From Nocardia bhagyanarayanae (GTDB taxonomy: Bacteria; Actinomycetota; Actinomycetes; Mycobacteriales; Mycobacteriaceae), in contig NZ_VFPG01000001.1 in the NCBI RefSeq assembly GCF_006716565.1, positions 434,001-498,000 of the forward strand: a stretch of DNA of 64,000 nt, in the 5' to 3' direction. The notes beneath the pieces are model-generated. The model saw only the letters and a program-made list of their open reading frames with translations. It was not told the DNA's origin and searched no databases. This document shows positions 1 to 42,693 of this stretch, piece by piece. The translations under genes and the position numbers were made by a program. How positions within the stretch are numbered: position 1 is the stretch's first letter; each line of letters begins with the position of its first letter.

Positions 1-3000
1 CGCTGTTCGCCGGTCTGCCCTGTGGATTCGCCGCCGTTGGAGCCGTTCGAGGGCGAGTCGTACTGCGGCGCGGGCGGATCCTGACGAACCGGTGCGGGCG
101 CGTCGTAGTGTCCGGCGCCGGGCGCATCCGGAAGACCGAATCCATTGCCGCCTTGCCCGTTACGAGTTCCGTCACCTGACGGATACGGCACGTCGACCGC
201 GGATCCCGGCGGTTGCGGCGAACCACCGGGAGACCCGAATCCGTTGCCCGAACCCGGCTGCCCCAGGTTTGGCGGCGATTCCGGGCGCTCCGGCAGTGGA
301 GCCTGTGGCGAAGGCGGAACCGACTGCGGTGGGACCTCCGGAACCCCCGGGATCGGTGACACCGGCGGGACCGACCATTGCGGCGGCGTCACCGGCGCAA
401 CCTGTTGCCCAGGCGGGAACGGCTGCGCGGAGGAAGATTCGCGCGCAGACGAAACCGGGAACTCCGGCGGCACCGATGGTTCCGACGACGGCAGCCACGG
501 CGAGGCCGTCTGCCCGGGCGGAACCGGCTGCGGGGGCGCGGACGGCTGCGGCAACGGAGGTTCCGGCGCTGACGGAACCGAAAACTCCGGCAGCGTAGGC
601 GGCACCGAAGGCAGCGGCGTCTCCGGCAACGACGGCGCAGGCCACGATGGGACGAGCTGCCCGGACGGAACCGGCTCCGGCGTCCGCAATTCCGACGCAG
701 GCGGAACCTGGAACTCCGGCAGCGCAGGCGTCGAAGGCACAGGCGGTTCCGACAACGACGGCGCATGCCACGGTGAGACCGGCGACAGGGGCGGCACCTC
801 TTGCCCAGGCGCGACCGGCTGCGGTGACGGAGATTCCGGAGCAGACGGAACCGAAAATGCCGGCGGCACAGGCGTCGAAGGCAACGACGGTTCAGGCGAC
901 GACGGAGCTGGCCACGATGGGACCGGCTGCCCAGGCGGGAACGGCTGAGCGCTCTGCGATTCCGGCGCAGATGGGACCGGGGACTCCGGCAGCGCGGGCG
1001 GCACCGAAGGCACAGATGGTTCCGGCCACGACGGCGCAGGCGACGATGGGACCGGCTGCCCAGGCGGGTACGGCTGCGACGACGGAGGCTCCGGCGCGGG
1101 CGCGACCGGGAACTCCGGCGGCACCGAAGGCACAGATGGTTCCGGCCACGACGGCGCAGGCCACGATGGGACCGGCTGTCCCGGCGAGTACGGCTGCCCG
1201 GGCAGGTACGGCTGCGACGACGGAGGCTCCGGCGCGGGCGCGACCGGGAACTCCGGCGACACCGGCGGCACCGAAGGCACAGATGGTTCCGGCCACGACG
1301 GCGCAGGCCACGATGGGACCGGCTGTCCCGGCGAGTACGGCTGCCCCGGCGGGTACGACTGCCCAGGCGGGAGCGGCTGCGACGACGGAGGCTCCGGCGC
1401 GGGCGCGACCGGGAACTCCGGCGTCACCGGCGGAACCGAAGGCACAGGCAGCGACGGATCCTCGAAGGCCGGAGTGCCCGGAGGCTTCGGCGCCGTAGGA
1501 ATCTCCGGGAGCGGCGGAACCGGCTGCCCAGGCGGGAACGGCTGCGGGAGCGGCTGTTCCGGCGACGGCGGCGCAGGCCACGGTGGGACCGGTGGTGCCG
1601 GCCACCCAGGCGGCAAGGGCTGCGGCAGCTCGGGTTCGGGCAGCGGCGGTCGCGGAGGTACCGGGAACGGAGGCCTCGGCGGCACCGGCCCGCCAGGCGG
1701 GAACGGTTGCGGCGGCCGAGGTTCCGGCATCGGGGGACGCGGCGGGGCCGGGAACGGAGGTTTCGGTGGCACCGGCCCGCCAGGCGGGAACGGCTGCGGC
1801 GGCCGAGGTTCCGGCATCGGCGGACGCGGCGGGGTCGGTCGCTCCGGTGGCACGGGCAGAACAGGAGGCACAGGCGGCGACGGGTTCTCCGGGATCGGAG
1901 GCTGCGGTGCCGGAGGGATCTCCGGGCGCGGCGGGACCGGCGGTCGCGGTTCCGGAGGAGCCTCCGGGAGCGGCCGCACCGGCGGTTGCGGAGGCTTCGG
2001 AGACACCGGCGGTTGCGGAGGCACGGGAGGTTGCGGCATCGGCGGCACAGGCGGGTTCGGCGGTACCGGCGGTGGCATCCGCAGCTCGCGCTCTTCCTCC
2101 GCGCCACTTCCGGCCGCGAGACCAGCCCGCGCACCACCGTCGAGCCGCGGACGCCTGTCGTCTCCCGCCGAAGGCCGCTCCCCCTCGACTCGCCGCCGAC
2201 CTTCGCCGCTCTCCGACCGCTCGCCACCTCCGGTCTGCGCCCCACTCTCCGAGCGCGACTGCCCGCCTTCGCTATCCGGCCGAGCCGAACCCTCCAACCG
2301 AGGCTCGCCTTCGCCGACCTGCGAGCCGGCCCCACGCTCAGGCTGTGGCTGCCCCTGGCCGACTTCCGGCCGCTCGCCACCTTCGACCTGCGCCGCACCC
2401 TCGGGCCGCGACTGCCCACCCTCGCTATCCGGCTCAGCCGAACCCTCCGACCGAGACTGACCATCGCCGACATCTGCCTGCGCCCCGCCCTGAGGCCGCG
2501 ACTGTCCGCCTTCGCTATCCGGCCGAGCCGAACCCTCCGACCGCGACTCGCCTTCGCCGACCTCCGAGCCGGCCCCACGCTCCGGCTGCGGCTGCCCCCC
2601 GCCGACTTCCGACCACTCGCCACCTTCGACCTGCGCCCCACCCTCAGGCCGCGACTGCCCACCCTCGCTATCCGGCTCAGCCGAACCCTCCGAGCGCGAC
2701 TCGCTTTCGCCGACCTCCGAGCCGGCCCCATGCTCAGGCTGCGGCTGCCCCCCGCCGACTTCCGACCGCTCGCCACCTTCGACCTGCGCCCCACCCTCGG
2801 ACCGCGACTGCCCACCCTCGCTATCCGGCTCAGCCGAACCCTCCGAGCGCGACTCGCTTTCGCCGACCTCCGAGCCGGCCCCATGCTCAGGCTGCGGCTG
2901 CCCCCCGCCGACTTCCGACCGCTCGCCACCTTCGACCTGCGCCCCACCCTCAGGCCGCGACTGTCCGCCCTCGCTATCCGGTCGAGTCGCACCCTCCGGC

Positions 3001-6000
3001 CGCGACTGCCGCTCGCCACCCGTCGGCCCTTCGCCACCTTCAGCCTGCGCTGCCCCCTGCGGGCGTGACTGCCCATCCTGGCGAACCGGTCGAGTCGCCC
3101 TTTCAGGCCGCGACAGGCCTTCGTCAGCTTCCGAGTCGGCCTGACGCTCCGACCGCGACTGGCTGTCGCGGACTTCCGAATTGGTCCAGCCCTCAGGCCG
3201 CGACTGCCCCTCGCTATCCGCCGGCCGCTCGCCAACTTCGACCTGCGCCCCGCCTTCGGGCCGCGACTGACCGCTCTCAGGATCCGGCCGAGCCGAACCC
3301 TCCGACCGCGACCGGCCTTTGCCGACCTCAGAATCGGACCCACCCTCAGGAAGCGACTGGCCCTCGCCAACATTCGCCTGCGCCCCGTCCTCCGGCTGCG
3401 GCTGTCCACCCTCGGCATTCGGCCGAGTCGAATCCTCCGACCGCGACTCGCTTTCGCCGCCCTCGGCGTCGGCCTCGTTCTCAGGCTGTGGCTGTCCGTC
3501 GCCGACCTCCGGCCGCTCGCTACCTTCGGCCTGCACTCCACTCTCGGGCCGAGACTGTCCACCCTCGCTATCCGGCCGAGCCGAACCCTCCGATAGTGAC
3601 TGGTCGTCGCCGGCCACCGAATCGGCTCCACCCTCGGGTCGCGGCTGACCGCCCTCAGCATCCGGCCAAGCCGAACCCTCGGGCTGGGACACGCTTTCGC
3701 CGACCTCCGAGTCGGACCCACTCTCAGGCTGTGGCTGCCCCTCGCCGACCTCCGGTTGCGCCAGGCCATCTGCGCCGTCGGGCCGAGCGGTCCGCTCATC
3801 ATCCACAGATCGCGGCGCGGCCGCGTCCGCCGAACCACTATCAGGCGCTGTAGGCGGCTGTCCGCCAACGTTATCCGGGCGGGCCAGCTTCTCCGGCCGT
3901 GGCCGGCGCTCGCCGCTTTCCGAGTCGGATTCACCTGTGGGCGGCGACTGCGCCGGTGGATCGACCGGCCCGGCATCCGACGACGCAACGCCTCCCGGCG
4001 TCCACTCGCCGCCAGACTGATCGGACTCCGCCGCTCGACCGCCAGGCCAATGCACCGTGCGCGGATCAACCGGCCCAACGCCGTACGGCGCAGCCTCGCT
4101 CTCCTCGGGCTCGACCGCTCGACCACCCGGCCAGTGCACCTTCCGGGGATCGACCGGCTCAGCTGCCGAGGACGCGGCACCTTCCGAAGCTCGCCCGTCG
4201 ACGCCTGGGTCCGGCTCCGGCCCGGGTTCCGAGCCGACTCCGCCAGGCCAATGCATCGTCCGCGGATCAACCGGCCCAACACCGGGCGAACCAGCACCTT
4301 CCGTCGATTGCGCGTCTGCGTCCGTCTCGGACCCACCCGGCCAATGGACCGTCCTGGGATCCACCGGGGATTCCGGTGCCTGCTCGGGCGGCAGTGCGGT
4401 CGGCTCGCTCTGGTCGGTCGCCTCGTCCGCGGGAGTCGCCTCGTCCGCGGGGGTCGCCGGGCGCGGCGGGAGGGCGTACCGGGAGTACTCCGGTTCACGT
4501 GATGGCGGAGCGAATTTGGCGCCTTTCGCCCAGTCGGTGAACGGAGGACGGTTCGAGTTCCAGTCGAAGCCGATGCGGACGGCGTGCTCGTTGGCCAGGT
4601 TCCAGAACGCGGTCGGGTTCCGGATCAGGAAGTTCGATTCCGCCAGCGCGTCCTGCAACATCAGGATGTCGGCGTCGTTCGGGTCGCCGTCGATCAGGCG
4701 CTGCCACGCCAGCGCCACGTCGACGACCGCGTCGAGCCGCTGTCGCACGACCACGCCGGTGCGCCAATCGGTGCGCAGGTACTCGGCGTTCATCAGATGG
4801 TGCTTGATCTGCGCGATCTCCGCCCTCGTGAACGCGTGCGCCGAATTGTCCAAGCGGTCGGCGACTTCGCCCGCCAGCTCCTTCCTGTCCACATCGGTGC
4901 CGCGCGTGAGCTGATCGTGAATGAAGTTCACCAGTCGCTCTGCGTCACCGGGCTTTTCGTCGCGTACGTGCCCGGTGATCTCATCGACCGCCGCGCTGAG
5001 GTCCGGTCCAGGATCACCCGGACGACGCGTGGTCGGCAGACCCTCGATGTGGTCCTCGATCAGTCCGTCCACCAACGCGACGAGTTCGGCCGCCCGCACC
5101 GCGCGCCCGGCACCTTCGGCGGCAGGGTTGCGTGCGAGCCGGTCGGTGATCCTGTCGATATCGCTGTCGTCGCCGCGGAACCGCTCGTATTCCAGTTCCG
5201 CACGACGCTGCACCCGCGCCCACGCCCGCTGCTCGGCGACCTGGCTCGCCTGATACCAGCGCTCGTTCTCCGGAAGGGCGAACCGGTCCTGGACGTTCCA
5301 CTCCCGGGCCATCGGTTGCACTTCGGCGCTCTTCTTCCGGAACAACGGGTGTCCCTTGAAGCCGGGCCGGATCCGACCGGGGTTGTTCTTGTCGCTGTAC
5401 CAGGTGAATCCGGACAGCTTCGCCGTCTCCAGGATCAACCGCATCGTGTGATAGAAGAGGCCGGAGAACGGAACCTCGTACGTCGGACCGGTTTCGATCG
5501 GCGCCCCGCCGGGGATAGCGGGCAGCAGATCCTTGTTGACACCGGGCCCGTTGTCGGTGAACGGATCTTCCAGCGCCGCCTGGAACGGATTCACCGCCCA
5601 ACCGCTGACCCCCTCGGGGAGGTCGCGCGGATGGAAGGTCTTGGGCACGGTGCCACCGTCACGGTTGGTCCGCCAGCTCGGACGGTCGGGGCGCACCTCG
5701 TGCGGCCTGCCCGCGGCGTCGAACCACCGGACGAGTAGCACACCGGAGTCGAGCGGCCGGGGCCCGGTGATCTCGAGGAACTCACGCCGAGGTCCGTCCA
5801 TGCGCCGATACCGGACCGGTTCGCCGCGTTCGGCGATGATCTCGTGGAACTCGACCGTCGCGTCGTGGCGCGTCATCACATGCGCGACCGACGCGTCCTC
5901 CCGCAGCGCGCGGGCCAGCGCCGCGTCGTGCAGGGCGCGCGGATTGTCGAGTCCGCCGCGCGGGGCGACGACGATGATCCGCGGTTGGTCACCCTCGACG

Positions 6001-9000
6001 AGACCGACGCGGGGCGCGATCGGCCTGGCATCGGCCGCGTCGAGGAATTCGCGGCCCGCGCCTGCCAATTCGGCGATCCTGGCCTGGATGCGCTCGATCG
6101 CGTCCTCTGCGACATTGACCCGCTCCGCCGCCTCCCGCAGCAGATTCAGATTGCGCGCCTGTTCGGCGACCCGGCTCGCCTCGATCGTCCGGCCCGCGAC
6201 TTCCGCGAGGGTCTCGTCGAGTTGCCCGTGGCCGAGTTCGTTCTCGTTCACGCGCAGCCTGCGCGCCAGATCTTCGCGCATTCCCCGCCACGGTTCGACC
6301 GCGAGCACTTGGCGCGCGCGTTCGCGTGCCAGCCGGTCGATTTCGGTGCGCGCCTCGTGCGACAGCGTCGGCTCGACATCGGCCCTCGACCTGCCGAGTT
6401 CGCCGAGGCGACGATCGATCTCGGCGACCCGCGCTGCCGCGCGTTCGTATTCCTCGGCCGCCCGCTGCAACTTGAACACCTGTCTGCGGCGGCGGGAAAG
6501 CTCGGCGTCGCCGACCAATTCCGGTGTCTGCGTAGCCAAGTCCTCGCCGACGCCCGGGATCGTGCGCTCGCCGACCAGGGCGTTGCGCAGGTGCTCCAAG
6601 GTCGGTGCCAGATCCGCGCCCAGCGAATCGTCCGCGCCGCGCAGGGTCGGCAGGATATCCGTGAACCGCGAGGCGCGGTCATTGCGCTTGGCGCGCCAGA
6701 ACTCTCGCTCGGCGACGGCGGCGGCGCGGTCACGCACCAGGGCCTCGTATTCGTCCTGCGATGTCCCGTCACGCAGGGCGGCGATCGCGTCGTCGAGCCG
6801 GGCGATGTCGTGTTCGGCGTCGTTGACGTGTTCGGCGGCCCGTTCCAGCGCGTCGATGGCGGCGAGCCGGGCCGGCATCTCGTCGACGCGCATGGTCTTG
6901 CCGCGCAATTCGTCCATCGTCGAGACCAGCGCGTCCCGCGTGAGATCGACGTCGACGTCCACCGGCAGGTTCCGCGCCCGCATCCGCCGGATGTCGCGCC
7001 ACTCCTCGCGGCGCGAGACCGCCTCGGCGCGCTCGGCCAGTAGTCGATCGAGCTCGGTCCGTTCCCTGGCGGTCAACGACCGCCGCGGCGCCTGCGCTTG
7101 GGCTTTGGAACCGGAATCCGGCTGCGAGGCAGGGTTTTCCGCGTCGCTCGGTTCGTCCGGATCGGGCGAGGTGGCGGGCGGTTCCTGCGGCGGCTTCGTT
7201 CCGCCACCACCGCCCGCGGCGGCCTCCGGCTCGCGCGCCTCGCCGGAATCCGGCTCACCCTCGGGCGCGACCCTGGCGCTGTTGGACTCGGCCGTCGCCT
7301 CGGAGGGCCCTTCGCTGTTCGCCCCGGATGCGGACTGCCGCGATTCCCGCGGCACCGGACGCGCCGAACCCGCGGGGTCCGTGCCGGGCCGAGGACCCGG
7401 CCGCGACGGCGCACCCGCCGCACCGGAGTCGTCTCCGTCATCGGAATCCGTTGTCCGGCTGTCGGACTCCGCGACGCCACCGGGCCAATGCGCGGTCCGC
7501 GGGTCGACCACCCCGGTCGCCGACGTCCCGACACCTTCGGTCGATCGCCCGTCGCCACCCTGGTCGTCATCCGGTCGCGACTCCGGCGCGGGTCCGCCCG
7601 GCCAGTGGACCGTTCGCGGGTCGGTGCGGGTTGTCTGCTGCGGCTCGGCGGTCGGGTCGTAGCGGACCTCGTGCAGACCGGCGCGGGCCAGTTCCAGTCG
7701 GCGCTTGGCCGCGGCGAATTCCGTCTGAGCTGCGGCGAGTTCCGCGCGACGTTGCTCGACGATGTTCGCGGCGGCGTGCAGACGGTCGACGCTCTGCTGG
7801 GGCACGCCCTCGGCGAGCAGTCGGCGCATCGTCGCCTGCAGCGTCTGGCTGGTCAGCTCACCAGGGACGATCGGCAGCCGCGCGACCTCGTTCCTGAGGT
7901 TCATCACGGCGTCGAAGTGCGCGTCTCCGGCCACGTCGCGGCGGGTCCTCGCACGATCGAACTCCGCGCGAGCACGGTTCGCCGAGGTGTCGCCGTCGGC
8001 CGCCGAGCTGAGCGGACCGGTGCCGGCCGCCACCGGCCCTTCGGTACGGAAGTCGTTGCGGTGCAGCGTGATTTCACCGTCGGGGCCGTCCGCGATCCGG
8101 ATGTGACGGACGACCACATCCGCCCGGCTGAGCGGCAATCGCAGGTGCGGATACTCGGTCGCGAGCCGGGCACGAACATCGGTCGGCGCGTCCCTGCCGA
8201 CGACCACGATCACCGGCGGATCCGAGGGGATGATGCCGACGTGGTCGTCGAGGCGGCGCGCGCCCTCCTCGGCAAGCACCCGGCGTTGCACGGCGCGGGC
8301 GAGCGCCCGATCCACCGCGGTCAACCGCTGCTCGGCCGCGTGGAAGCGCACCGCCGCGTCCCGCAGTGCCCAGGTCCGCGCCGACTGTTCCGCGAGTTCG
8401 GAGACCGGCAGGGTCCGGCTTTCCAGCCGTTCGACCATGGCGTCCAGTGCGGCGTCATCGATCAGATCCGACTCGGCCACCGGCAACCCGCGCATGGCTT
8501 CGGTCCGCCGCGACCGGGCGTCGTCCAACTCGCGCCGCGCGGTCTCCCGTTGCGCCTCGATCCGAGTCACCACCCGGCGTGACCGCTCGGTCTGCGACAA
8601 GGCGGGCCGGGCGCGCCGCCGCGCCGCAGCGAGCTGTGCGTCGATGCGCGCCAATTCGGCGCGCGCCGCCTCGTACCGGTGGGCGGCCGCCTGCGATTCG
8701 GTCGGATCCGCTTCACTGGGGCCGTGCCTGCCGTTGACGACATTCAGCACCGAGCGGGCCGCGCCGACCCGGACAAGGGCGGCCGCCCGCCGCGCCGTCA
8801 GCTCGGCGATCTCGTCGCGCCGAGCCGGGCGCGCAGCGGGCGCGCCCTCGTCGCCGAAGGCGGTGTTGCGCGCGGCGGTCAATTGCGCTGTCAGGCGCGC
8901 CAATTCGGCGCGGGCTGCGAGGTACCTGCGTGCCGCCGATTCCAGTTCGTTGAGCTGGGCTTCCCGGCGCTGTGCGTCCGCATCGGAGGGCACCGTCCGG

Positions 9001-12000
9001 TCCCGCTGCTCGCGTAGGGTCTCGTCCAGGTTCTCGGTGAGGTCCGCCTCGCCGAACCCGTGTGGCCGATTCGCTTCGGCGCGCTCGGCACGCGCCGCCT
9101 CCAACTCCTGGACCGCGGCCGCGTAATCGGATTCCAATCGCGCGATCACCTCGGCCCGGCGCAGTGGCCGGCCCGCCGCTTCGGCCTGCGCGCTGAGCTC
9201 GCGGTGCGCGGCGCTCGTGCGCGTCAGCTCCCCATCGATGCGGGCCAATTCGGCTCGGGCGTTCCCGAGCCTGGTCGCGGCCGCCGCGCGGTCCGGGTGA
9301 CCATCGACGAGCGCGTCGTGCGCGGCCTCGGCTTCCGCCAGCTCCTGCGCCGCGGCGGTGCGCTCCGCGGTCAACCGGTCGATCAGCGCGGGTCGCCGCT
9401 CGGCTTCCGCGAGTTCGAGCAGCCGGTCGTTCAACGCTCTCAGCTTCGCGATATCACGCGCGCGGGCAACCACTTCCGCACGCAGCGAGGCCTGCACCTC
9501 GGCGAGTTCAGCCGGAGTGAGCCGTTCCTCCTGGTCGAGCTTGCCGTCGCGGAAGACCTCGTACACCGTCGCCCACCGCTCGGCGTCGGCATCGGTCAGG
9601 TTTACGCCGACGGTCAGCGCCCAATCGCGGCTGGGTGCCGCATGCCCGCTCGCGGAGATCTCGTCCGGCCCGAAGTCGCCGACCCGGTCGAGCACGTCGA
9701 TGAGTGTGCCGACATCGTCGACGACATCGAGCAGGTGCTGTACCGCACGCTCGTGGACGGGGAATTCGGTGTCACCGACACGGGGATCGACAGCGTCCTC
9801 GCCACGGGTGACCGGGTCGTACCGGTCGAGGCCGTTGATGGTCCGGTAGAACTCGGCGAGCGCGTCGACGAGATTCTCCCGTTCGGCGGGTCGGCGCATC
9901 AGATGCCGGATCGCGCGATTCAGCCGTTTCGCGTCCAGGCTGGACGTGTCCGGCCGGTATTTCTTGTCGTCGTTCTTGTAATTGCGCGAGTACAGATCCT
10001 TGGGGAACCTGCCCTTGCGCCTGCCGACGCCCAGACGCTCGGCCAGCCGATCCCGCGCCGCATCGGCCGCGGCTTTGTCGTCGGCCCTGGCCACCTTCCA
10101 GTACGCGATCAGATCCTGCACGGCCTGATACCTGCGCGCCGAGCCCAGATCCGGATCGATGAGCGCCTGCGCCATGGCTTCCGGCGTCATCTCGTCGACA
10201 TCGATATCGATCCGGGTCGCCAGCTGCCAGCGTGCGTCGGTGTGGTTGTTGAAGTCGTCGATATCCCATGCCGTGCGCGCGTAGTCGATGACCGCCTCGA
10301 TCTGGCTCGCGCGCACCGCGTTGTCCAGTCCCAGCCCGCGCAGCCTCTCGGCGAGCTCCGCCGCGGAACCGCGCTCGGATTCCGGGATGTCGAGGGCGGC
10401 GGCGAGATCGTCACGGGCGGCGACGATCTCACCGCGGCTCGGTGCGGTGCTCGGCTGCGACGCCGCGTCGGGCTCGGCGGGTTCCAGCAGCACCGGACGC
10501 CACCCGTTGTGGCCGTCGTCGATCAAGGTCAGGTCGAGCAGGCGGCCGTCGATCTCCCGACGGAGGTGCACGATCCGTCCCGGATCGGCGTCGGTGAGAT
10601 GGAAGGTGCCGTCGGGTTCCAGCGTGGCCGTCCGGAAGACCGGTTCGACCAGGCCGGTATCGACCGCCTCGGCGAGATCCGGGTAGTCCCGCAGCGCCCG
10701 GCCGAGCACGGCCTCGTGGTCACCGAAGCCGTCGACGACGACCATCCGTGGCGGGTTGCCGGGATCACCGGGCAGCAGCGCGACGCCATCGATGTCCGGG
10801 AGCAGGAAACCAAGGTCATCGATGATCGACGAGCGCAGAGCCAGATCCGATATCAGCCCGGTCAGTTCCTGGACCTCGGCGTCGGCGCGCAGGAATTGGC
10901 GCACCCGAGACTGGAAGTCGGCGACATCGGTGCCGTAGGCGCGGATCCGGTTCGCCGCGTCGATCATGGTGAGCCGGGGAAGCGCACCGAGGTCGACGAT
11001 GTCGACGTCGAGCAGCTGAGCCCAGACCGCCCGTTCGTCGCGGACCTGATCGCGGTTCAGCGCCTCCGCGAAGTAGCGGGCGATGCCCTCGTTGCGACCA
11101 GGCTCGTCGGCGTCGTAGAGCTCACCCCACAGTGGGAACGCGTCACCGTTGGCGATGCGAACCACACGCAGCCAGCTGGCGTCCCCGCCGTTGGCCTCCA
11201 TGACCTCGACCAACAGGCGGGTCATCGGGTCGGTGTCGAAGAAGCTGACCTCGCGACCGAACGGGATGCGCCGGTTCTCCACCTGGTAGTTCGCCTCGGC
11301 GATGGAGAGGCCGACGAACGCGCCGATGCGCCTGGCCTGCTGATACCGCAGCACCCGCAGCGCGTCCTGCACGGCGTCCGGGTTGTCGTCGGTCAGGTCG
11401 ACCTCGAGCCGGTCGGCCGAGTCGACCAGCCAGTCGAAGGCCGCGCTCCGGCGGCGGGCGGCGTCGATCAGCTCACCGAAGAGATCACCGAACACGCCGT
11501 CGACGCGCGGCGGCACGCCGTCGGGGAACGGTTCGGGACGCGCGGTGGCCGAGGCGTTCCCGGCCCGCCGATCCGCCCGCTGCTGTTCGCGCTCGCGTCG
11601 CTGGCGCGCGACCTCCTCGGCGAATTCGCGCCCGAATTCTCGATGCAGCAGGGAGGGCAGCGCCTCGTCGATCGAGGGCAGATAGTCCTCGCCGGTGCGC
11701 CTGCGCACGGGCGGCACGTCTCCGGTCTGGTCCGGGGTACGGCTGGTCAGACGCCGAAGGAAAGGCAGCAGTTCGCGGTTGCGCCGCAACTCTTCGAAGA
11801 CCAGACCCAAACGCATCGGGTTGAACTTCATGCCGAGCTGTTCGCCGTGCGCGCCGTGACTGGTCAGCGGCAGCCCGGCGAAATGCCCGAGCAGCGCTTG
11901 CCCCGCGGTGTCCTGGGACGACAGCGAAGGATGCTTCGGAATGACGGCGTGACCTTGGACCAACGCCGAGGTGCTGATCCGCGGCCAAGCCGATCCCGGC

Positions 12001-30000: not shown

Positions 30001-33000
30001 CGCGAGGACTTCTCGCGTGCCAGTGCCCGCTCCGCCTTGCGATACGCGCGGTCGTAGGCATCGGAGTACGTCTCTTCGATCGGGCTGCGCGGTATGCCCG
30101 AGCCCTTGCCGTCGGCACGCAGTTCACGCACCTGCTCGAGCTCGGCCACCAGGTCGTGGATGCGCCGCCGCAGCGGAGCGGGCGCGTCCGTGTCGCCGAG
30201 CGGCGCGGCCGCGCCCGGGGTGATGCCGTGCGCCCGATACCACTGGTCGGAGAACCGCTGGGTGAAGTTCCGGCCGTCGACTTCGGGCACCAGCTCGTCG
30301 AGGTTGTCGCGCACCGCGCGGACGGCGGCTCGATGGGAGGCGGCGTCGAGCAGCTGCCCGGTGATCGCCGAGTCGTTGCGGTAGGCCCGGGCGAGGACGT
30401 CACCGGCCTGAGCGAACGCCCGGAGGTAGGCCTTCGCCAACGAGCCCGCCATGGACCCGATCATGTTGTCGTCGGTGAACTGGTTGTTCGCCGCGAATCC
30501 CAGCGCCGCGGCATCGGCCTGGTGATCGAGCATCAGGTCGATGTACTCCGCGCGCGACATGCCGAGTCGCGGTATCGGCCCGTGGGGCGAGGAAGCGTGC
30601 AGCTCGGCGAGTCGAGCGGCGCGGATCAGCGCGATGGCCCGCTGGCGCGGATTGTCGCCTTCGCGCAGCACCACCGTGTTCGTCGACGGGTCGTAGGACT
30701 CCTCCAGTCCCACCTCCACGTGGTCCCGGCTGGCGTGGTACGAGCGCGGTTCGGAGGTGTAGAGCACCCGCACACCGTGGCGCCGCAACGTCTGGGCCGC
30801 CCATCGACCGATGTCGTGGCGGTGATCCCCGAGCAGCTCGGCGACCCGATCCGATGCCTTCGCCACCAGTTCCGCCAAATCCGTTCGCGCTGCGTCGTCT
30901 TCGGGACCAACCGCGGGCGCGGCGGAATCGGAAGGCCGCGGCGACAGGTCCACATCCGTGTGGTCACCGCCGATGAACACGACGCCGTCCTGGGCCACAT
31001 GGATCGCGATCGGTTCCTCGACACCGAGATCTCGCCGCACCGCCGCCGCGAGATCGACGCCGAGCGCGCGGCGCCGCTCGGTCAGTTCGCCGTGGCGGGC
31101 GGTCAGTTCGGCGAGCACGGCCAAATCGGTCTGGGCACCGTACCTGCGCGGACCGTCCGGGCCGTGCAGCCGCGCCACCACGTCCTGCCGGTCGAGCCTG
31201 TCCGCGTCCCCGCGCAGCAGCGAGACATCGCCAAGTCGCGCCGCGACGCGATCCCAATCCGCCTCGACCCGGGCGAGTTCGCGTTCGACGGCGGCGCGCT
31301 TCCTGCCGATGTCCTCCAGTGCCCGCGCCGCGTCCCGAGTGGTCGGCGCGTATTCGCGCAACCCGTCCGGTGCGGTGATGCGGTGCTGGGCGTCCCAGAA
31401 CTCGGCCGCGGCGTCCCGGTGGGCGCGTGCGGGTCCGGAACCGTCCGGTGCGTCGAATTCGCCGCCCGTGAGCAGTGCGTCGACGCCCGCCTGCCGCGCC
31501 CGTTCGAGCAGAGCCGGATCGATTTCCGAATCCGGCTCTCGCACGCCGATTTCGGCATCGAAGGCGGCCAGGTAGGTCGCCTCGAGCCGCTGCCGTGCGG
31601 TGGGATCGGTGACCGGATTCGCGGCGGTGTCGTATCCGGCCAGTTCGAGTTCGCGATGGAACTCGGCCTGCCTGCCCAGTGCCAGCGCCTCGGCGCGCAC
31701 ACGCGCGGCGATGAAGTCGGCGCGATCCTGGGCACGAACACGCGCGGGTGTCACCTCCAGCAGACCGGTCCGCACGGCGTCGGCGAGCGTCGCGGCGCGG
31801 ACGATAGCGGCGGCCTGGGCGGGATGGCTGCGATCCCGTGTCCCGACCGACACCTCCATCGTTCTGCCGTCGAACACATCGACGGACCCGTTCGCGTCGA
31901 AACGCACGTCGGCGCCGAGGTCGCGCAGCGTCGCCATCGCATCGCGACCGAAGGCACCGAACCCGAGCACCCCTTGTACGTCGTTCGCACCGGGCAGGCT
32001 GGGACGCACCGTCCACGACTCCCCCAGCGGCCCGGTGGATTCGGTCCGCGCATCGGCGTCATGGCGGAATTCCGGGCTGCCCGAGGGCGGCGTGAGACGC
32101 TGATCGGCCGGCGCGGTGGCGGGCTCGCCGTGCGCTTCCCGCCACGCCCGCTCGTAGAACTCGGCGTTGGTCGGACCGGAGCCCGAGGGGCGGTCCGCCG
32201 CGACGTGCGGGCGCAGCGCGTCGAAACCGGCCTGGTTCGCGATGCGGTCCAATTCGTCTGCCGGACCGCCGATCTCGTTCGCCGCGTCCGCGCGCGCCTT
32301 CCGGTAGGCGTCGAGGTAGACGTGATCGGCCGCGGTGAGCTCTACCGCGCCACGCAACTGCACGGCCGCGACGATCTCCCAGACGCGAGCCGAGGTCTCC
32401 TCGTCGATCTTGCGATCGACGTAATCCCGTCGCTCCGAACGGATCCGGTCACGGGCGTCGACCGCGGCATCCTGCCTGCCCGCGAACTCGGCGTGTATCG
32501 CGCCGCTCACGATGGCGCGCATGTGCTCGCCGTCGGTGGCGCCCGCATCGATGACAAGCACCCGCCGCGCGGGGAAGAACTGCGTCGCCCCGCCGGAACT
32601 GTGCTCGATCGTGACGCCATGCCGCCGCAGAGTCTCCAGCGCCCACGTGCCGACCGCGCTGTCCGACAATGCCGTCGTGATCGGCTCTATGCGCTGTCTG
32701 GTCGCGTCGCCCGCCAGATCCGACTCGGCGACCGCGCGGCCGGAGGACTCGAACACCCGCGGATCGATAGAGTCGACCCGGCGCGCTCGGACCTGGCCGA
32801 AGTCGTCGATGCCCAGCGACAGGTGCTCGAACTCGACGGGACCGTCGCGCAGGAGCGTGCGCACGCGCGGATCGGCCGTCGCCGCATTGCGCAGGGCCTG
32901 GTGCTGGAAAGGCATCCCCGCGACGACGATCCGGTTCGGTGTGCCCGGAACGTAGACGTAGTGGTCGCCGAGCGGACGCGCGTCCGGAGCGTAGGTGGCC

Positions 33001-36000
33001 AGCACCTCGCGGGCGGCCAAGGCGGCAAGCGTGTCGACCTCCCGGTCGTAGGCCACCTGCGCGTTCTCGCGCCGCGCGATCAGATCGGTCAGGGACAGCA
33101 GATCGTGCTCGGTGCGGCGCAGGTCCGCCAGCCGCTCGGGTGTGGTCGCGGGATCGGCCATCTCGGCACGGACCGGACCGAGACGATCGGCGATCTCCCG
33201 GGACAACGAGTCCGCCGGCAGATGCGGACGGATGCCGTACCTTGCTGTGCCGCTGTTGATTTCGTCGGACACCTCGACCAGATCGCGGTGCGCGCGGACA
33301 CGATCGGCCGCGCTGGTCCGCAATGCCGCGGCCGCGGGCTGTGCCGGTTCGGGTGCGATCTCAGCGTCGTAGAACTGGCCGTGATCGGTGCGGGAACGAT
33401 CCCACTCGGCTCCGTAGTAGTCGGAGTAGTTCCTGCCGTTCGGCCAGACGTGGGTCTCGATTTCCGCGATGAGCGCTTCGGTCGCCCGTTCGTGTGCCCG
33501 ACGCGCGATCTCGGCCTCGCTCAGCGGCGTTCCGTCTTCCCCGTGCTCCGGCTGTGCGGCGTACGCGGCGTCGTAGGCGTCCTCGAGGTAGTGCCGATCG
33601 CCGAAATAGTCGCCGAGCTGCGGGTCGGCACGGAATTGTCCGGCAAGCCTGATCCACTGTGCCACCGCCGCCGCCTCCTCGGCGACCATGGTGCGGATGA
33701 ACGTCGCACGGTCCATACCGAGATGGCCCGATTCGCCGCGGATGTACCGCTCGGCGTGGACGGACTCGTGCGCCAGCGACAATGCTTGGCGCACATGGTC
33801 GTTGCGGCCGGTGTAGACGGTGGCCGTCAACGACTCGGCGGCGAACCCACCGCTGCGCCGGTCCGCGGCCGCCCGTTCGTATCGCACCCGTACCGACGCG
33901 TCGTCCAGCACCCGCAGCACATCCGCGCCGGTCTCGGTACCCCGCAGCAGCGCGCGCACCTGATCGGAATGCGAATCGAGTGAACGACCGACGCGGACAT
34001 CGATGTCGGCGACAGGGTTCGAATCGGGGTCGGCTCCCAGGGGGTGCACCGCGTTTCCCTGCGGATCGAGCAGGATCGCATAGGTGCCGAGCACTTCCCG
34101 CGGCACGATGGGCGGGAACCGCTTCGTGTAGTCCGCACCCGGGTCCCGGGCCACGACGATGCTCGCGCCGTCCTCGTCCCTCTCGTGTCTCAGGACGTAC
34201 GCGTGCGCGCCGACGCCGTACTCGTCGACCGGACCCGCGTACTCGTCGACCACCAGTGCTGTCGAGCCCTCCGGCATGTCGAGGAGCTGCCGTTGGATCG
34301 CCTCGTGATCGGCGAACCGGCGCAGCTGCCCGCCCGCCGCCTCCTGCACTTGGGCGACCGACATGCCATCGAGTCCGACCGGGCCGTCCGGCGGCTCGAT
34401 CGTCGTGCTGCCGGTCAGGCGCTTGATCAGGCGCAGCGCGAGTTCGGCGCAACGGCCGCGGTTCGCCTCGGCGGTGTGCGAAGCGACAGCGTCGGAAGGC
34501 TCGGCGAGCGGCGCGTCCTCGGCGTCCTGAGGCCCGTCGAGGGCATCCGGCGAGTCGTCGTCGGAATGCTCGACGAACTCCGCGTCGTCGACATGCTGAT
34601 GAATATCGGCATCGGGAAGGGCGGCGACGTCGACCGTGCCGTCGGCCGCCACGCCGTTCGCGTCGTTCCAGTCCCTGGTGTAGACGCCGACGTAGTCGGC
34701 GACGCCTCCGTCGGAGGTCCCCAGGTACGCCCGGATGCCCGCCGCACCGAAGTCGAGCGCCGGGTCCCGCATGGGATCACGGAGGTGCCGCGGCCGCAAC
34801 AACTCGGCCATCCGATTCAGCGCACGGCGCGACATCCCGAGACGTGCGGCATCGCTCGCGCCTTCCAGATCGCCGACCGGAACCACGTGTCCACGGGCCC
34901 GCAACTGTTTGACGAACTCGGCCTCGAGCGCGTGCGCACGGCTCTCCTGCCGGACCATCGCGTCGACGTAGTCGCCACGCTCCGTCGTCAGCGGATGCGG
35001 TGACAATCCCTCCGCGGCATCACGCAAGTGGGCGGCGGCATGCACCATATCGATGGCCTGCCGCACCTCCGAGGTGCCGTAGCCGAGAACGAGCGTCCTG
35101 CGCTCCGGGTAGTAGCGCGGCTCGACGTCCAGTTCGTGCACCACGCGAAGGTTGTTGCGCCGCAGCATGTCATCGGCCCATCGGCCGATCTCGCTGCTCT
35201 CCAGCAGACGCTGGACCCGCGCGATCCGATCCGCCGACGTCTCGCCCGCGGAATCACCCGGCATCCCCACCGGTACGGCAGGCTCGTCCTCGGCAGTCCA
35301 ATTCAACGCATCGTCGACGACGTCCGTGGCGGCGTCGGGACCGAGCGACGTCACCTCGACATTCGCGTCCGGCCCCGGTTCCTCGACCTCGATCAACCGC
35401 AGATCCAGATCGGGACGACGCAGCACCGACGCGAGTTCCGGGCGGCGCGCCAAGGCCTCGGCGAGCGCGGCGGCGTGCTCACGTTCGAGCGCGACGACGA
35501 CCACCCGAGGCGGCGTTCCGTCGAGCAGCGCGACGTGCGGGGTGATCGCCTCGGCCCCGTCGAGTCCGGTCTCCTCGAGTTCGGACGCGAGCACATCCCT
35601 TGCCACGGCGGCATTCGCTGCTGTGTCGGCACGGTTGATCAACTCACCCTGGAGGTGGTACTGATCGCCGAGATCGGACAACAACCGAATCTTCAGTTCA
35701 CGCCCGAGCAACTCGGCGCGCTGTGTCTCCATCGCCGCGTCGGGCAGCATGTCCCGGCCGACATCGGCCCGATCCACACCGAGCCGTTCGGCGAGCTCGG
35801 CCAATTCCTGCTCGTTCGCCTCGCGCAGCCTCGGCAGCGTCTCCGCGCGCAGTTCCGGGTCGATGGCATCGATGGTGTCGATGCCGAGACTGCCGGCGAG
35901 ATCGTTGATCTGGCCGGCCAGCTCCCTCCGACGCCGTTGGGCGACGACCCGCCGCGTCGCGTTCTCGGCGACCTCCGCCTCCGCCTCGGGCGAACTCCAC

Positions 36001-39000
36001 CCGTGCACATCGGAACCGCCGATCATGACGGCGTCCCATGCGTCGCCGTAGTACTCGAGGTAGTTGTTGCCATCCGCCCACCGATAGGTGGCGATGTGGT
36101 CCGCGATGGCGGCCGCGCCCGCTTCGCGTGCGCGGGTCAGGATCTCCTCGTCGGTGAGGCCGAGGTCGTCGCGCGACGCCTGCGCGGCCCTCGCGTCGAA
36201 GGCCGCGAGGTAACGCTCGGCAGGCCGGCTGTCGTCGTCGACCGCGTAACCGAGCCTGCGTAGCTCCCGGGCGAACTCGAACTCCCGTCCGGCCGCGAGG
36301 GCTTCCTCGCGGACCATCGTCGCGACGTACTCGTCCCGGCCCAGCATGCGAATCCGGTTCAGCCGGTTGCTGGTTTCGCCGCCCCAGGCCATCTGCGCGT
36401 GCACGCCTTCGTGCACCAGCGTCAGCGCCTGGCTGATGAGATGCCGTTCGGTGACCCGGATTTCGGCAACGACCGATTCCGAGTCGTACGTGCCGTCGGC
36501 GAATTCGCTCGTCATCTGGTGCGTGAAGTCGATCGAGACATCGCCGTCCCCGAGAACAGCGAGAATCTCCCTACCCACGCTGGTCAGCTCCAGCAGAGCA
36601 GTGACCTGATCGGAGTGTTCGCCGAGCGAAAGGCCGATGCGCATCGGCAGATCGACGGTCGGGTGGCCGGATCCGTCTCTCGCGATGGGGTGCACCGGAA
36701 CGCCGCGGTCGTCGAACAGGATCATGTGCGTCGAGCCGATATCGGAAGGCAGTCGCGGCGGGAAGCCCCGCACGGTGCCCGCGCCCGCGTCGTACACCAC
36801 GACGCCGTTCTCCTCGCGCCGGAGCACATAGGCATGAGCACCGACACCGTGCTCGTCCACCGGGCGGGAATAGGCGTCGACGACCAACGCCGAAGACCCC
36901 TCCGGCATGTCGAGCAGCGCCCGATCGATCTCCTCGTGACCGGACACCGGACGCAACCGCCCGCCCGCCGCGTCCTGGAGTTCGGCCGCGGTCATTCCGT
37001 CCAGCCCGGCAGCCTCCGACGGCAGCCTGATCACCGAACTGCCGGTCAACGCCTTGATCAACCGCAACGACAGTTCCGCGCAACGGCCACGATTGCGCGC
37101 GGCCACCGAACGCGACGTGGATTCCGGCGACCGCCCACCGGCCGGACCCGCGTCCGCTCGCTGCGGCGGCGCATCGGAAAGCTGGGCGATGGTGGCGGCG
37201 AAATCGCGGGTTTCCGCGCGCAACCTGGCCAGCGTATCGGCGACGCCGCGATCGGTGGCGAGATCGACGGCGGACACCTCGAGCGCACCGGCCCAGTGGG
37301 CGAGTTCCGCTGCGCTCAGGTCGAGGTCGGCGGAATCGATCGGCGACCGGACCGCGAGGGCGAGCGCCTCGATCGCGCCCGCGCGCAGCAGTGTTCGAAC
37401 CCGCTGCTCGGCGATCGCCTCGGTGAGACGCGCGTCGAGCCCTGCGTCGAGGGGCACATTCATCTGGCGAAGCAGCCATGCCCGCGTCAACTCCGGCGAC
37501 AAGGGTTGCGGGACGAAGGTGTCCGGCGACGGGGGCGCGGGATCGGGTCGTGATCCCGGATCCGAAGCCATTTGCGGAGACGGCGCGACTCGCCGCGCCA
37601 GATCGGCCAGCGCCCGCAACGGATCCGGATTGCCGGACAGCGAATCATCCAGCCCGAGAGCGGCGGACAGATCGTCGACGTAATCGGGCTCGGGGTCGGT
37701 CAGCGGATCTTGGTCCTGCCGCTCGGGTATCCGCGATTCGTCGAGGAGGCGCCGCAGCGCGGCCATCGGGTCGGCCGGATCGCTCGTGCCCGCTCGCGGC
37801 GGCATCCGCCGGTCGAGATCGTCGTTCCGCGCGCCGCTTCCGGCCGCGAGCCCGTGCCCGCGCTCGTCGCCGAGCGGACGTGTGGCGATGCCGTTCTTGT
37901 CGTAGAAAATGCCCCAGGTCGCCTTCGCGTCCGGAACCTTGGTGGGATCGAATTCGAACGGATCCGGCTGCCGCAGTGGGTCGTAGACCATGACCTTGTC
38001 GGTCGCGGCGTCGTAGTACATGGTGAACGCGTGCGCACCCGGTTCACCGTCGGGAACGCTACCCCGCTGCTGGTTGATGACGATCACGGCGGACTTGCCG
38101 CGCATGTACCGCAGCGCATCGGCGATCGCGTGCTGTCCCGTCCGCCTGCGTCCCGGCCCCAGCAGGTTCAACGCGGCGAGGCGTCCTCGCCGCCACAACG
38201 GAGTCAGCTGAGCATCGGCGTGGCGCTCGATGACGCGCCAGTCCATGCCGTCCGGGCCGACACTGTCCGGCGCCGGAACAGTGATCGCGGGGTTGCCGGT
38301 CACCTCGGCCGCCTTCCACAGCGCCTGCACACCGCAGCCGCCCTCGGTCAGCTCGGGACGCGGCGAAACCGGTTGCGGCGGATCCGATTGCTGCGAATCC
38401 GGCTGTGCCGGATCGGCATCCGGCTGGTGCACCGCGGTTCCGGCACGGTCGGCCTCGATATCGGACACCCGGTACATGGCATCGACGGGCACCCCACTCG
38501 GCGGCTTCGCCCCCTCGGTCTCCGGCGCGTTCCACTGGTGGTAGAGACCGTTGGTTTCATGGGGCACGAACACCCGGACGCCGTCACCGAAGTGCTTCGA
38601 CGGCAGAATCGGATCGCCCGGCATGCCGACCAGCGCGATATCGTCGACCAGGTTCGACAACCGGCCCTTACGGCCCGCGGCCGCCGCGACGTCGACACCG
38701 TAGCCGCCCGCGATGATCCGGACGGACGGCTTGTTCCCCGCCACCGCCCTGGTCGCGTCGAAGATCGCGATATCGCGCCGCAGCAGCTCCGCCGCCTTCT
38801 TCGCGCGCCAGTTCACCATCGCCGATCCCCGACCCGGTGTGTCGTAGCCAAGCCAGGCGATGGATGCCAGCGACTCGCCCGCGCGCAGGCGGCCCGCGGC
38901 GGCGGCGTGCCTGGCGGCGGTCGCCTCGAGGACTGCGCCGAGATCCGCCACGGTCGCGTCCCGGCCCGGCACGTGCAACGACACCAGCGTCGCCGTGTTC

Positions 39001-42000
39001 GGATTGCCGAACGCGACGAGCGCCCTGCCCTTTCCACCGAAGGCGCTCGGATCGTAGGCGAGCAGGCGCACCGGCAGGTTCGGATCGATCCGCGCGGCCC
39101 GCAGCTGCGCCCGCCGCAAGTCCGCGACCGTGCGCCGCAAGTCGCGCAGCCGCTGACGTTCCTGGCGGTTCAGGCTGTCGCGTGCGCTGAGATCCGCGAT
39201 GTCCCGGGCGATCCGCAACCGGTTGGCGGTGTCGGCGGAATGCGAGTCGATGCCGGGCGCTCGGCCGATCACGTCCGGATACGCGCGAATCAGGGTGGCT
39301 CGTTCGGCGTCGGTCAGCGCGTTCCACCGCCGGGCGTTCTCGTCCGCCTTCGCCGCGGCCTCGTCGTCGGTGGCGGGATTGGCGTCGGTGTCTCCGAGCA
39401 GCAGATCCTGGGCACGCAGGCCCGGTTCCATCCGGTTCAGGATGGCGTCGGCCTCGTCGATCTCCGCCCTGGTCGCCTCGCTGCTGTCGTCCGGTAGGAC
39501 ACGGCGCGGGTCACGAGTGCCGGTGTTGTCGGAGTCCGCGTCGGAGTCCGGGTTGGCGGCGGGGTCCGCGGCAGGTGCGGCGTCCGGATCCAGATCCGGG
39601 TCGCGGGCGGGGTTCGGCCGCGTATCGGGGGCGGCGCTCGAACTAGTGTCGGGCTCGGCGTCCGCCCGGTCGCCGTCGGTGGTCGGGCGTGCGCCGCTCG
39701 GTGCGGCTTCCGGTCGGCCGGGCGGTGCGGGCGGCAGCAAGAGGGCGGCAGCGGCCGGGTCCACCGCGAGAGCCCCGTCCGGATCGGCCGCATCGTCCGT
39801 ATCCGGCTGGCGGGAAGTCGAATCCGCCGTGCCGTCCGGCGGTGTCGGCGCCGGGTCGGGCGAAACCAGATCGGCAGGGCCCACCTGCACCTGCTGCTGA
39901 TCGGCGCTTGCCGCGGCGTCGCCCTCCGCGTCCGCGTGCGATCGGGCTTGCGGCGCTTCGGAATCCGTGACTCGCGCCTGAACCGGTCCGGCCTGGTCCG
40001 GCGACGCGCCGGGAACACCGGCCGCCCGGGCCGGGCCCGCGCCGACCTCCGTCCGATCCACGCCCGTCGGCGCGGCGCCGACCGTATCGGGCGGGACGGC
40101 GCGGGTGCTGCCGTCCAGCGCGGCGGAACTTCCCCGTGCGTCGGCGGTCCGGGAAGCGTTCGACGCGGGGGCGGACTGCTGCGCCGGAGCAGCGGACGAG
40201 GTCGGCGACGAGGACGCCGGCGACGACGCACCGGGGGCGACGTTCGATGCGGTCGGCCCGGCGACCGCGGACGTCGAACCGGGCACGGCCGCACCGGGGG
40301 CGCCGACAGCCGTCGGCGCGCCGGGCATCCCGGCCGCGACCGGTCCGGCGTTCACGGGAGCGGCGCCGGGCGCCTGCGCCGCGGGCGACGCTCCGCCGAC
40401 AGCCGCCCCGGTCGTACCGGTACCGGTCCCCGAATCGGGGACGCCGACGGCTGAAGTCCCCGGCGTCGAGCCGTCGGCTATCGGCCGACCATCCGCAGCT
40501 GAATCGCCCTCTGGCACAGCAGAATCCGAAGCAACCGATGCGGGTGAATCCGTGTGTGCCGCGGAATCCGCGCCGCCCGTGGAAACCGAGCCCCCGCCCG
40601 CTTGCGCTGAATCGGCGCCCATTTGCGCGGAATCTCCGCTCGGCGCAACCGAATGCGCGCCCGCTGCGGGGGCGCTGCCGTTCTGGGCAGCGGAACCACC
40701 GTTCGAGGTGTCCGTATTGCCCTCGTTGGCACCGGAATTCGCATTGCCTTGACCGCCAGGGGCCGCGCTCTGCTGGCCTGCCGCCGAGTCGCCACCGGTC
40801 TGACTCGTGGCCGCCGCACCGGAATCGGAAGTGCCTGTGTCTCCGGCATATTGGCCGGCGTCGGCCGACGTGGACGGCCCCGCGGACGCGGATGTGGTGC
40901 TCGGAGAACCGGCATCACTACCGCCGTTGGCATTCGCTCCGGCGCCATTCGTTCCAGCGCCGGTGGTCCCGGCTCCATTCGTCCCGCCGCCGTTCGCTCC
41001 ACCACCGTCGGCGGCGCCGGTGGTACCCGTGCCATCGGCGGTATTCGGTGCGGGAACCGGGGACGTTCCGTCAGCGGCCGGTCCGGATCCGGGCAGAGTG
41101 CCGACCCGGACGGGGTCTTGATTGAAGTTCACCGGGCCGTTGTGCTGAGTTGTCCCCCGCGCACCGTAAACACCGCTCGGCCCGGCGCCGGAGACCGCGC
41201 CACCCACGAATGAACGCGGATCCCAGTTCCCTGTGGCCCATGCCGCGACGAAAGCGCCGGCCAGACCGGCACCCGCGCCGACGATCGACCCGCCCATGAA
41301 TCCACGGACGCCGCGGTTGTTCATCAGACTGGGCGCGATCCGGTTCATCGCGCGGTTCAATCCGAAACCCGCGCCACCACCGGCGCCACCGGCCAGCGCG
41401 GAGACCCAGGCGTTCTCCCAGATCGCGCCGGTATCCCAACCCTGGCTGTTCAGACCCTCGGCGATGACGATGCCCTGCACCGCCACCTCTTGCGCGGTGC
41501 CCTGGAAGACCTCGACGATCGCTTCCTGGACGATCTCGTAGACGAGCTTCGACACCACCTGCTTCGCCGCATCCGACAGGAATGTCCTGGCGAGCATGGC
41601 GGCGATCCGGCCCTCCAACCACCTTGCCATCGCGCGAAACACGGCTCGCGTCGCCGCGATGGCCCCGGCCTGCACGGCCCCCGCCCCGGGACCGGCGAAG
41701 AAGGACAGGGCCAGCTCCGCCGCCAACCAACCCAGCGAGAAGATCGCGTTCAGGTGATTCGCGTGAACCGCACCCGCGAAATCGTCGACCGAGACCGCAA
41801 GGTCGTTGAACGAGTTGCCCATCAACTCGATCGAACCGTGTTGCGGCGTCCCGCCTTTGGGCGTGTCGTCGTGAATCACCGCACGCAGCGAATCGACGAT
41901 CTGCTGCCCGCCCTCGCCCTGCGGATACGCGTTGACCACCGCCGCGGCGGCGACATCAGCCTCCGCTATCGCCTCATTGAGAATCTCGTCGGCGATCTCC

Positions 42001-42129: not shown

Positions 42130-42633
42130 TCACCAGGCTTGGCCGGCGACAGTCTCCGTTGGCCCCCTGCCACCACCGTGGTCGTAGCTCTCGACATCGG
42201 TGAACGTCATCACCCCGTCGCGTTCCGACGAACCGGGGGGCGCCAGCGAAACCGGCGGCTCCACCGGGATTTCGGCCTCGATATCCGGCATTCCCTCGAT
42301 CACATCGGACAACTTCGGCAGCCGTGCCTGCTCGTCGAACAGGGGCGCCGCGAGCGCCTTGCTCTTGGCGAACACCTCCTCGGCCGCTTGCTGCGCCATC
42401 CGGGTGACCGCCTTGGCGATCTGGTCGTAGCTCAGTTCGTCGACGCGGTCGGAGAAGCGCGTCTCGATGACGACGCCGTTGGCGTTCACCGTCACAGACA
42501 CCGTCTTGTCGCGCGTGGTCGCGGTCGCCGTCAGCTTGACGCGCTCACGCTGCGCTTCCGCGATATCCCGCATACGGCTGCGGAAGTCCTCCAACAGCCC
42601 GGCGATCTCCCCCTCCATACGCCCAGACGTCAT
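42130..42633 (-). CDS. YbaB/EbfC-family-like protein of the T7SS toxin cassette
   Basis: The 167-residue protein has an N-terminal helix (MEGEIAGLLEDFRSRMRDIA) followed by a strand-rich core 'VKLTATATTRDKTVSVTVNANGVVIETRF' and a helix 'YDQIAKAVTRMAQQAAEEVF'. This helix-beta-helix layout is that of YbaB/EbfC proteins; the ESX-1 protein EspL is often given the same family label. The acidic C-terminal ~60 residues are probably flexible. The start chosen is ATG 42631-42633, with GGAG about ten bases upstream; a TTG 21 bases earlier is possible. It ends 20 bases before the giant gene and begins about 60 bases after the WXG100-like gene, so co-transcription is likely. A chaperone or adaptor role in T7SS is inferred from context. 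Confidence 0.75.
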   Translation of the reverse strand: MTSGRMEGEIAGLLEDFRSRMRDIAEAQRERVKLTATATTRDKTVSVTVNANGVVIETRFSDRVDELSYDQIAKAVTRMAQQAAEEVFAKSKALAAPLFDEQARLPKLSDVIEGMPDIEAEIPVEPPVSLAPPGSSERDGVMTFTDVESYDHGGGRGPTETVAGQAW

Positions 42634-42693
42634 GTCACCCACTCCGAACTCCAAGGCGGCGCCCGGAAAGCCCGCCGGCCACCACTGCCGCTG

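Follow-up and report, generated by a model that had tools for sequence, protein, structure and literature searches.

The stretch of the Nocardia bhagyanarayanae genome analysed here (64,000 nucleotides, hereafter the window; C1:434001-498000 of a 7.56 Mb genome in two contigs) carries on its minus strand a gene of exceptional length, A, whose product, judged from sequence and gene context, is probably a giant multi-effector polyprotein made for T7SS export; we assign this reading a probability of about 0.6. The features of A and of its upstream genes are given below with their positions in the window.

42694..43014, minus strand: 106-aa gene upstream of A, candidate Esx-like export partner
42130..42654, minus strand: YbaB/EbfC-family gene, 174 aa, just upstream of A (Pfam PF02575, 31.4 bits, cut-off 25.5)
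1..42110, minus strand: giant gene A, ATG at 42110, 14,240 codons, the frame running 612 bases past the left window edge
41331..42110, minus strand: conserved N-terminal region, aa 1-260, with a WXG100_2 match at aa 25-154 and a YPxGxG turn
39471..41153, minus strand: low-complexity Ala/Gly/Ser/Thr/Pro/Asp linker, about aa 320-880 (composition, sequence)
38610..39035, minus strand: alpha/beta hydrolase-like domain, aa 1026-1167 (Pfam PF06259, 65 bits, cut-off 20.5)
37818..38384, minus strand: papain-like domain 1, aa 1243-1431, predicted catalytic Cys1259 (PF15644, 17.6 bits, cut-off 24.1)
36633..37133, minus strand: papain-like domain 2, aa 1660-1826, predicted catalytic Cys1677
36399..36413, minus strand: HEGVH metallopeptidase-like motif, aa 1900-1904 (sequence)
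34860..35243, minus strand: DUF6782 putative metallopeptidase-like stretch, aa 2290-2417 (weak match, E 0.0053, 16.5 bits, cut-off 27)
33984..34496, minus strand: papain-like domain 3, aa 2539-2709, predicted catalytic Cys2554
33756..33770, minus strand: HESVH metallopeptidase-like motif, aa 2781-2785 (sequence)
24108..32015, minus strand: region aa 3366-6001, a module of about 730-770 residues in three diverged copies, absent from the related protein P0001
12876..12890, minus strand: HEVGH metallopeptidase-like motif, aa 9741-9745 (sequence)
4506..12167, minus strand: second copies of upstream modules, from two large duplications in A
21..2093, minus strand: proline-rich tail, about aa 13340-14030 (composition, sequence), followed outside the window by the C-terminal domain

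The initial annotation had reported a single minus-strand frame of at least 14,036 codons, and this frame proved to be real. No stop occurs in the 14,036 codons inside the window, and the leftward extension that had been proposed to find the stop and a terminal domain yielded both: combining the window with neighbouring genome stretches, the gene spans C1:433388-476110, with a single stop at C1:433388 and a C-terminal domain of about 150 residues beyond the window. Over the stretch occupied by A, the two other minus frames contain 190 and 158 stops, where base composition predicts 265, and GC3 is above 0.7 and higher than GC2 in all 28 blocks of 500 codons. A chance open frame is ruled out by these sister-frame stop counts and the GC3 bias, and the sequence anchors previously noted over 37 kb are covered by the confirmed frame. 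Frames of up to 1,905 codons also occur on the plus strand opposite A and are probably shadows of its GC-rich coding frame.

Comparison with other Nocardia species supports the coding nature of the frame. The ortholog of A in N. lijiangensis (G071) is open across 7,159 aligned codons, with dN/dS of 0.374 over 5,998 codons and 0.343 over 1,161 codons, and with values of 0.215-0.535 in all 18 blocks of about 400 codons, the highest of which (0.535) falls in the low-complexity linker. A is under purifying selection, at dN/dS of about 0.37, in the first half of the gene, which is the part covered by this comparison, as the G071 contig ends and codons 7,193-14,240 are without a DNA ortholog. A protein of 6,049 aa from N. 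amikacinitolerans (P0001, named 'alpha/beta hydrolase' in its source) starts as A does and has several modules in common with it in the same order, as well as the C-terminal domain (55%), and contains two papain-like cysteines compared with three in A. It is without A residues 3373-6061 and most of residues 9540-14090, and this presence or absence of whole modules suggests that A grew, or P0001 shrank, module-wise.

A second giant gene was found outside the window:

C1:381070-429489, same strand as A: giant gene B, 16,139 codons, 3.9 kb downstream of A

This gene, the true stop of A, the T7SS machinery and the larger relatives described below could not be seen in the initial annotation because they lie outside the window.

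The secretion-type N-terminus attributed to A was borne out by its match to Pfam PF25547 (WXG100_2) with 29.9 bits against a cut-off of 27; B reaches 30.9 bits, and the largest relative is likewise above the cut-off. Within the YPxGxG turn, the Y, P and both G residues are invariant in an alignment of 16 relatives. The N-terminus of A is 97% identical to that of N. amikacinitolerans, 97% to that of N. lijiangensis and 92% to that of N. xishanensis, while the first 232 residues of B are 58% identical to A. Such a delivery N-terminus conserved at 92-97%, joined to a variable body (6,049 vs 14,240 aa, with changes of modules), is a feature of polymorphic toxins. The AlphaFold2 model of the N-terminus was poor (pLDDT 46.5, pTM 0.38).

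The T7SS context suggested for A was substantiated by a nearby locus encoding EccC, mycosin, EccD, EccB, EccE and EccA, all above NCBIfam cut-offs, at C1:358854-371256, about 10-22 kb beyond B; one Esx-size protein in this locus matches WXG100 below the cut-off. The T7SS locus and both giants sit between map and rpsM of the ribosomal-protein operons (genes named by eye), the ribosomal-protein genes being located at 46.7-55.9 kb of the window (near map) and at C1:348201-351369 (near rpsM), about 129 kb apart. EccC scored above the cut-off in ten of ten further genomes. Its position relative to the giants varies among the 11 genomes compared: in five (G000, G012, G059, G108 and G088) a giant on the same strand is about 18-24 kb away, in G114, G115 and G117 the gene is distant from the giants, and in G054, G071 and G089 it is on contigs other than theirs.

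The genes upstream of the giants also recur. B is preceded by the same gene pair as A, comprising a YbaB gene (60% identical) and a 105-aa gene 44% identical to the 106-aa gene of A, and this pair is itself preceded at B by a 540-aa gene. Homologs of the 540-aa gene occur upstream of all five other giants inspected (G059, G108, G114, G115 and G117; 59-87% identical, that of G059 being seen in part, as the stretch ends inside the gene), as do YbaB homologs (45-80% identical); the 105/106-aa gene has a homolog beside four of the five, weak in G114 and G117. The 106-aa gene upstream of A has no Pfam match, and the 540-aa gene reaches only 14.7 bits in a YezG-like match with a cut-off of 21.7. Since the 540-aa gene is conserved beside unlike giants, an export factor fits better than an immunity gene, and no clear immunity gene was seen near the giants. 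The YbaB-family gene recalls, by its YbaB domain, the ESX-1 protein EspL, to which the available text of PMC6319747 ascribes such a domain and a stabilising effect on EspE, EspF and EspH. On the other side of B, a frame of 220 aa (C1:380408-381070) has its start overlapping the stop of B, and CxxC-type motifs in its tail resemble DnaJ zinc fingers by eye; it is possibly a coupled chaperone.

The multi-enzyme body proposed for A was recovered as predicted hydrolase-like, papain-like and metallopeptidase-like elements. A papain-like profile constructed in this study detected 125 domains across seven giants, from 3 to 34 per protein, and none in reversed sequences. A cysteine is present at the domain start in 109 of the 125, a count biased upward by seeding of the profile on segments picked for Cys and His. 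In 14 aligned domains Cys, Gly and His are invariant and Asp is nearly so. A structural model of the domain (pTM 0.78) gave papain-like effectors and proteases as its top VIA-align rows and a best E of 3.9e-3 in Foldseek; searched by sequence against the PDB, the profile found no papain-like chain, the sole match being a ribosomal protein (E 0.33). The Cys-His-Asp residues and the papain-like fold place these domains in the papain-like cysteine enzyme superfamily.

Among known families, the domains resemble Papain fold toxin 1, Tox-PL1 (PF15644), in the order of Cys, His and Asp, in a matching fold and in weak PF15644 matches. Of the 79 fragments of the largest relative, four match PF15644 at E <=0.01 (the best at 6.9e-6), and the relatives P0004, P0006 and P0008 carry PF15644. 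The domains differ from Tox-PL1 in that two single A domains, with 17.6 and 19.4 bits, stay under the curated cut-off of 24.1, and in forming trains of up to 34 in the giants. The available text of Zhang et al. 2012 (PMC3482391) lists 'NC, H, D' for Tox-PL1 and describes its domains as mostly toxins, some being likely releasing peptidases; both roles are possible for the papain-like domains of the giants.

In A, cysteine is nearly absent outside these domains. Relative to an expectation derived from 70 coding-like frames around the locus, picked by GC pattern and not representing the whole proteome, A has 4 cysteines in 14,240 residues instead of 91, three of the four being the predicted catalytic ones, and B has 22 instead of 103, nine of them at papain-like domain starts. 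This whole-protein depletion is independent of the papain-like profile.

The three HExxH motifs of A compare with a mean of 0.5 in ten shuffles, and Pfam gave no match for the 261 residues around HEVGH. DUF6782 was matched by 2 of 77 fragments of A and B together, with a best E of 1.4e-4. Some repeats of A resemble degenerate HExxH copies by eye, given which not all of its domains need be active. The copies of the triplicated module are located at about aa 3366-4093, 4133-4904 and 5232-6001; of the two large duplications, one placed a second copy of aa 6170-7466 within aa 9982-11387 and the other a second copy of aa 8242-9061 at aa 11788-12535. Short-repeat stretches occupy about aa 7800-8185 and 12600-13310. 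The possibility that A is one simple repeat drawn out was rejected, as a comparison of tiles shows a mosaic of modules. A domain of about 80 residues recurs in ten copies in A (for example aa 6640-6726, window 21933-22193), five in B and six each in G059 and G108, and no family was identified for it in these four proteins. The C-terminal pieces of A and B have no match in Pfam, and no toxin was recognised there.

The largest proteins of N. cyriacigeorgica are mainly NRPS and PKS in the available text of its 2013 genome paper. For A and B a megasynthase of this kind was rejected, condensation, adenylation, carrier and ketosynthase domains being absent among the 23 Pfam families found in the 77 fragments of both proteins.

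B and the larger relatives contain, in addition, DNA-binding units. In B, Pfam matches to sigma-70 region 4 and LuxR-type HTH are far above the cut-off, and those to 4'-phosphopantetheinyl transferase, sigma-70 region 2 and a histidine-kinase-type ATPase are just below or below it; the HExxH region of B has no Pfam match. A diguanylate-cyclase domain is not claimed for B, in which two stretches with GGDE motifs, seen by eye, are without a Pfam match. In the largest relative (G117), Pfam found LacI in 6 of 79 fragments, and the matches listed, to 25 of 44 families, also include sigma-4, PP2C, peptidase M3, LuxR, TetR and GntR; one 1,000-residue piece, among ten pieces scanned, reached 152.8 bits to LacI. 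Strict regular expressions for HTH units gave almost nothing, and profiles made for the purpose were used instead. These detected 27 LacI-type units in G117, 27 in G114 and 13 in G115, with none in A, B, G059, G108 or reversed sequences, and 19 of those in G117 start between residues 14,328 and 15,560. For sigma-4-type units the counts are 12 in B, 13 in G117, 9 in G114, 22 in G115, 9 in G059 and 9 in G108, with none in A; the LuxR and sigma-4 profiles match the same units, and their counts are not additive.

To trace the family, the N-terminal 260 residues of A were compared with genomes of the genus, and a match at E 1e-5 was found in 137 of 150. Frames of at least 10,000 codons with this N-terminus occur in at least 22 genomes: among the matches listed there are at least 23 such frames in 17 genomes, and at least six further ones in five more (G022, G054, G055, G122 and G143), these counts being lower bounds as many genomes are drafts. 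The largest giants, read in single-contig genomes, have 40,805 aa (G117), 36,587 aa (G114) and 33,511 aa (G115), and G117 has three giants in a row, of 15,942, 10,820 and 40,805 codons. At the family level 66 of 301 genomes match at E 1e-8, the longest frame outside the genus having at most 4,292 codons among the matches listed, and at the class level 11 of 394 genomes match at E 1e-15, one frame outside the genus reaching 9,927 codons. When residues 1-10,000 of A were searched against protein collections, with candidates restricted to about 5,500-17,500 aa and only the 449 with the most words in common scored, eight relatives of 6,049-7,559 aa were returned, all from Nocardia and two marked partial.

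The chromosome of G114 (C1) has five copies of about 9-10 kb around the same N-terminus, near 0.71, 2.07, 2.95, 6.94 and 7.97 Mb, which are 96-99% identical over long blocks and stand in frames of 17,118, 32,451, 648, 644 and 36,589 codons. From their sequences this appears to be a recent duplication, with two copies broken or mis-assembled.

The initial suggestion that A may be a previously undescribed class is not supported in that form, since giant multi-toxin actinobacterial proteins of up to 13,652 aa (SACTE_5178 of Streptomyces sp. SirexAA-E) are already described in the available text of Zhang et al. 2012 (PMC3482391). Like A and B, these are actinobacterial, of similar size and equipped with several toxin-type domains per chain. 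According to that text, they contain ADP-ribosyltransferase, caspase, lethal-factor-like and MCF1-SHE domains, none of which is among the 23 Pfam families of A and B, and the Nocardia giants are set apart from this description by their trains of papain-like domains, their HTH arrays (in B and the relatives) and a T7SS-type N-terminus and locus. A literature search over titles and openings of abstracts, with most subscription papers outside its range, found no account of Nocardia T7SS giants and no paper on LacI-, LuxR- or sigma-type units arrayed within a protein that also has an export domain. The size of the Nocardia giants alone is no record claim.

A and B also resemble the CpnT-like T7SS polymorphic toxins, which have a WXG100-like N-terminus (Pfam WXG100_2), in having the N-terminal domain above the Pfam cut-off and a T7SS locus nearby. 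Unlike these toxins, they are far longer and contain several enzyme-like domains instead of one C-terminal toxin.

If A is a polyprotein made for T7SS export, the upstream-encoded proteins would hold its N-terminus for the EccC motor and the chain would cross the envelope unfolded, a passage that the near-absence of cysteine would fit. Its domains might then act in or on a neighbouring cell, with the protein working either whole or after cleavage by its own papain-like or metallopeptidase domains. The bacterial-type DNA-binding arrays, present in B and the larger relatives and not in A, make a bacterial target likelier than a eukaryotic one, although this is not settled. More tentatively, and with the balance of probability against it, the same reading could be extended to the whole genus: the giants would be T7SS-exported polyproteins of 10,000 to more than 40,000 residues, having arisen through duplication and capture and lost their cysteines except at active sites, and they would be among the largest substrates of any secretion system. 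Besides trains of up to 34 papain-like enzymes, some have tandem arrays of bacterial DNA-binding headpieces, with 19 of LacI type over about 1,280 residues in the largest giant, by which they would tether a target bacterium's transcription machinery or jam it. To our knowledge, known T7SS substrates are far smaller than these giants, and ideas on T7SS cargo would need revising if one chain of 14,000 to 40,000 residues truly passes through it. With its defined loci, its recurrent upstream genes and its dozens of compact enzyme-like domains, the family lends itself to testing, in a genus that includes opportunistic pathogens.

Export may also end at the cell surface, where the giants would remain as an extremely long fibre or coat whose enzyme-like domains work on the envelope or on whatever comes into contact with it. 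The proline-rich and low-complexity stretches of A, its short-repeat stretches and its larger repeated modules are in keeping with this, and huge bacterial proteins described so far are mostly NRPS/PKS or surface proteins in the available text of PMC11573180. However, heterogeneous enzyme-type domains with conserved active-site residues, together with the DNA-binding ones of B and the relatives, would be odd in such a structure, and we regard it as rather unlikely. That the giants are not exported at all, being cytoplasmic scaffolds or regulators whose WXG100-like N-terminus would be either a relic or a module for interactions, appears unlikely in view of the cysteine depletion, the recurring upstream genes and the T7SS neighbourhood, even though the sigma-4-, LuxR- and, at borderline scores, phosphopantetheinyl-transferase-type domains of B are of cytoplasmic kinds.

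It is also quite improbable that only the N-terminal part matters and the remainder is a tolerated, unused product of runaway duplication and domain capture. The dN/dS ratio is at most 0.535 in all 18 blocks (7,159 aligned codons, first half of A), frames of up to 40,805 codons persist without a stop, and 109 of 125 papain-like domains start with the cysteine on which their profile was seeded; these observations speak against an unused body. In its favour are the great variation in ortholog length (6,049 vs 14,240 aa), the degenerate look, by eye, of HExxH copies and the frames of only 644 and 648 codons around two of the five near-identical G114 N-terminal copies. An assembly or annotation artefact, to which repeats are prone through mis-assembly, is hardly credible with frames of at least 10,000 codons and this N-terminus in at least 22 genomes, three of them read in single-contig genomes, and with coding periodicity and selection in A.

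Two minor observations concern the flanks of the region. A second EccC gene, with two Esx-size genes close by, is located at C1:320073-328005 and probably marks another T7SS. To the right of the window, at C1:501628-511331, large frames resemble nonribosomal peptide synthetase by eye.
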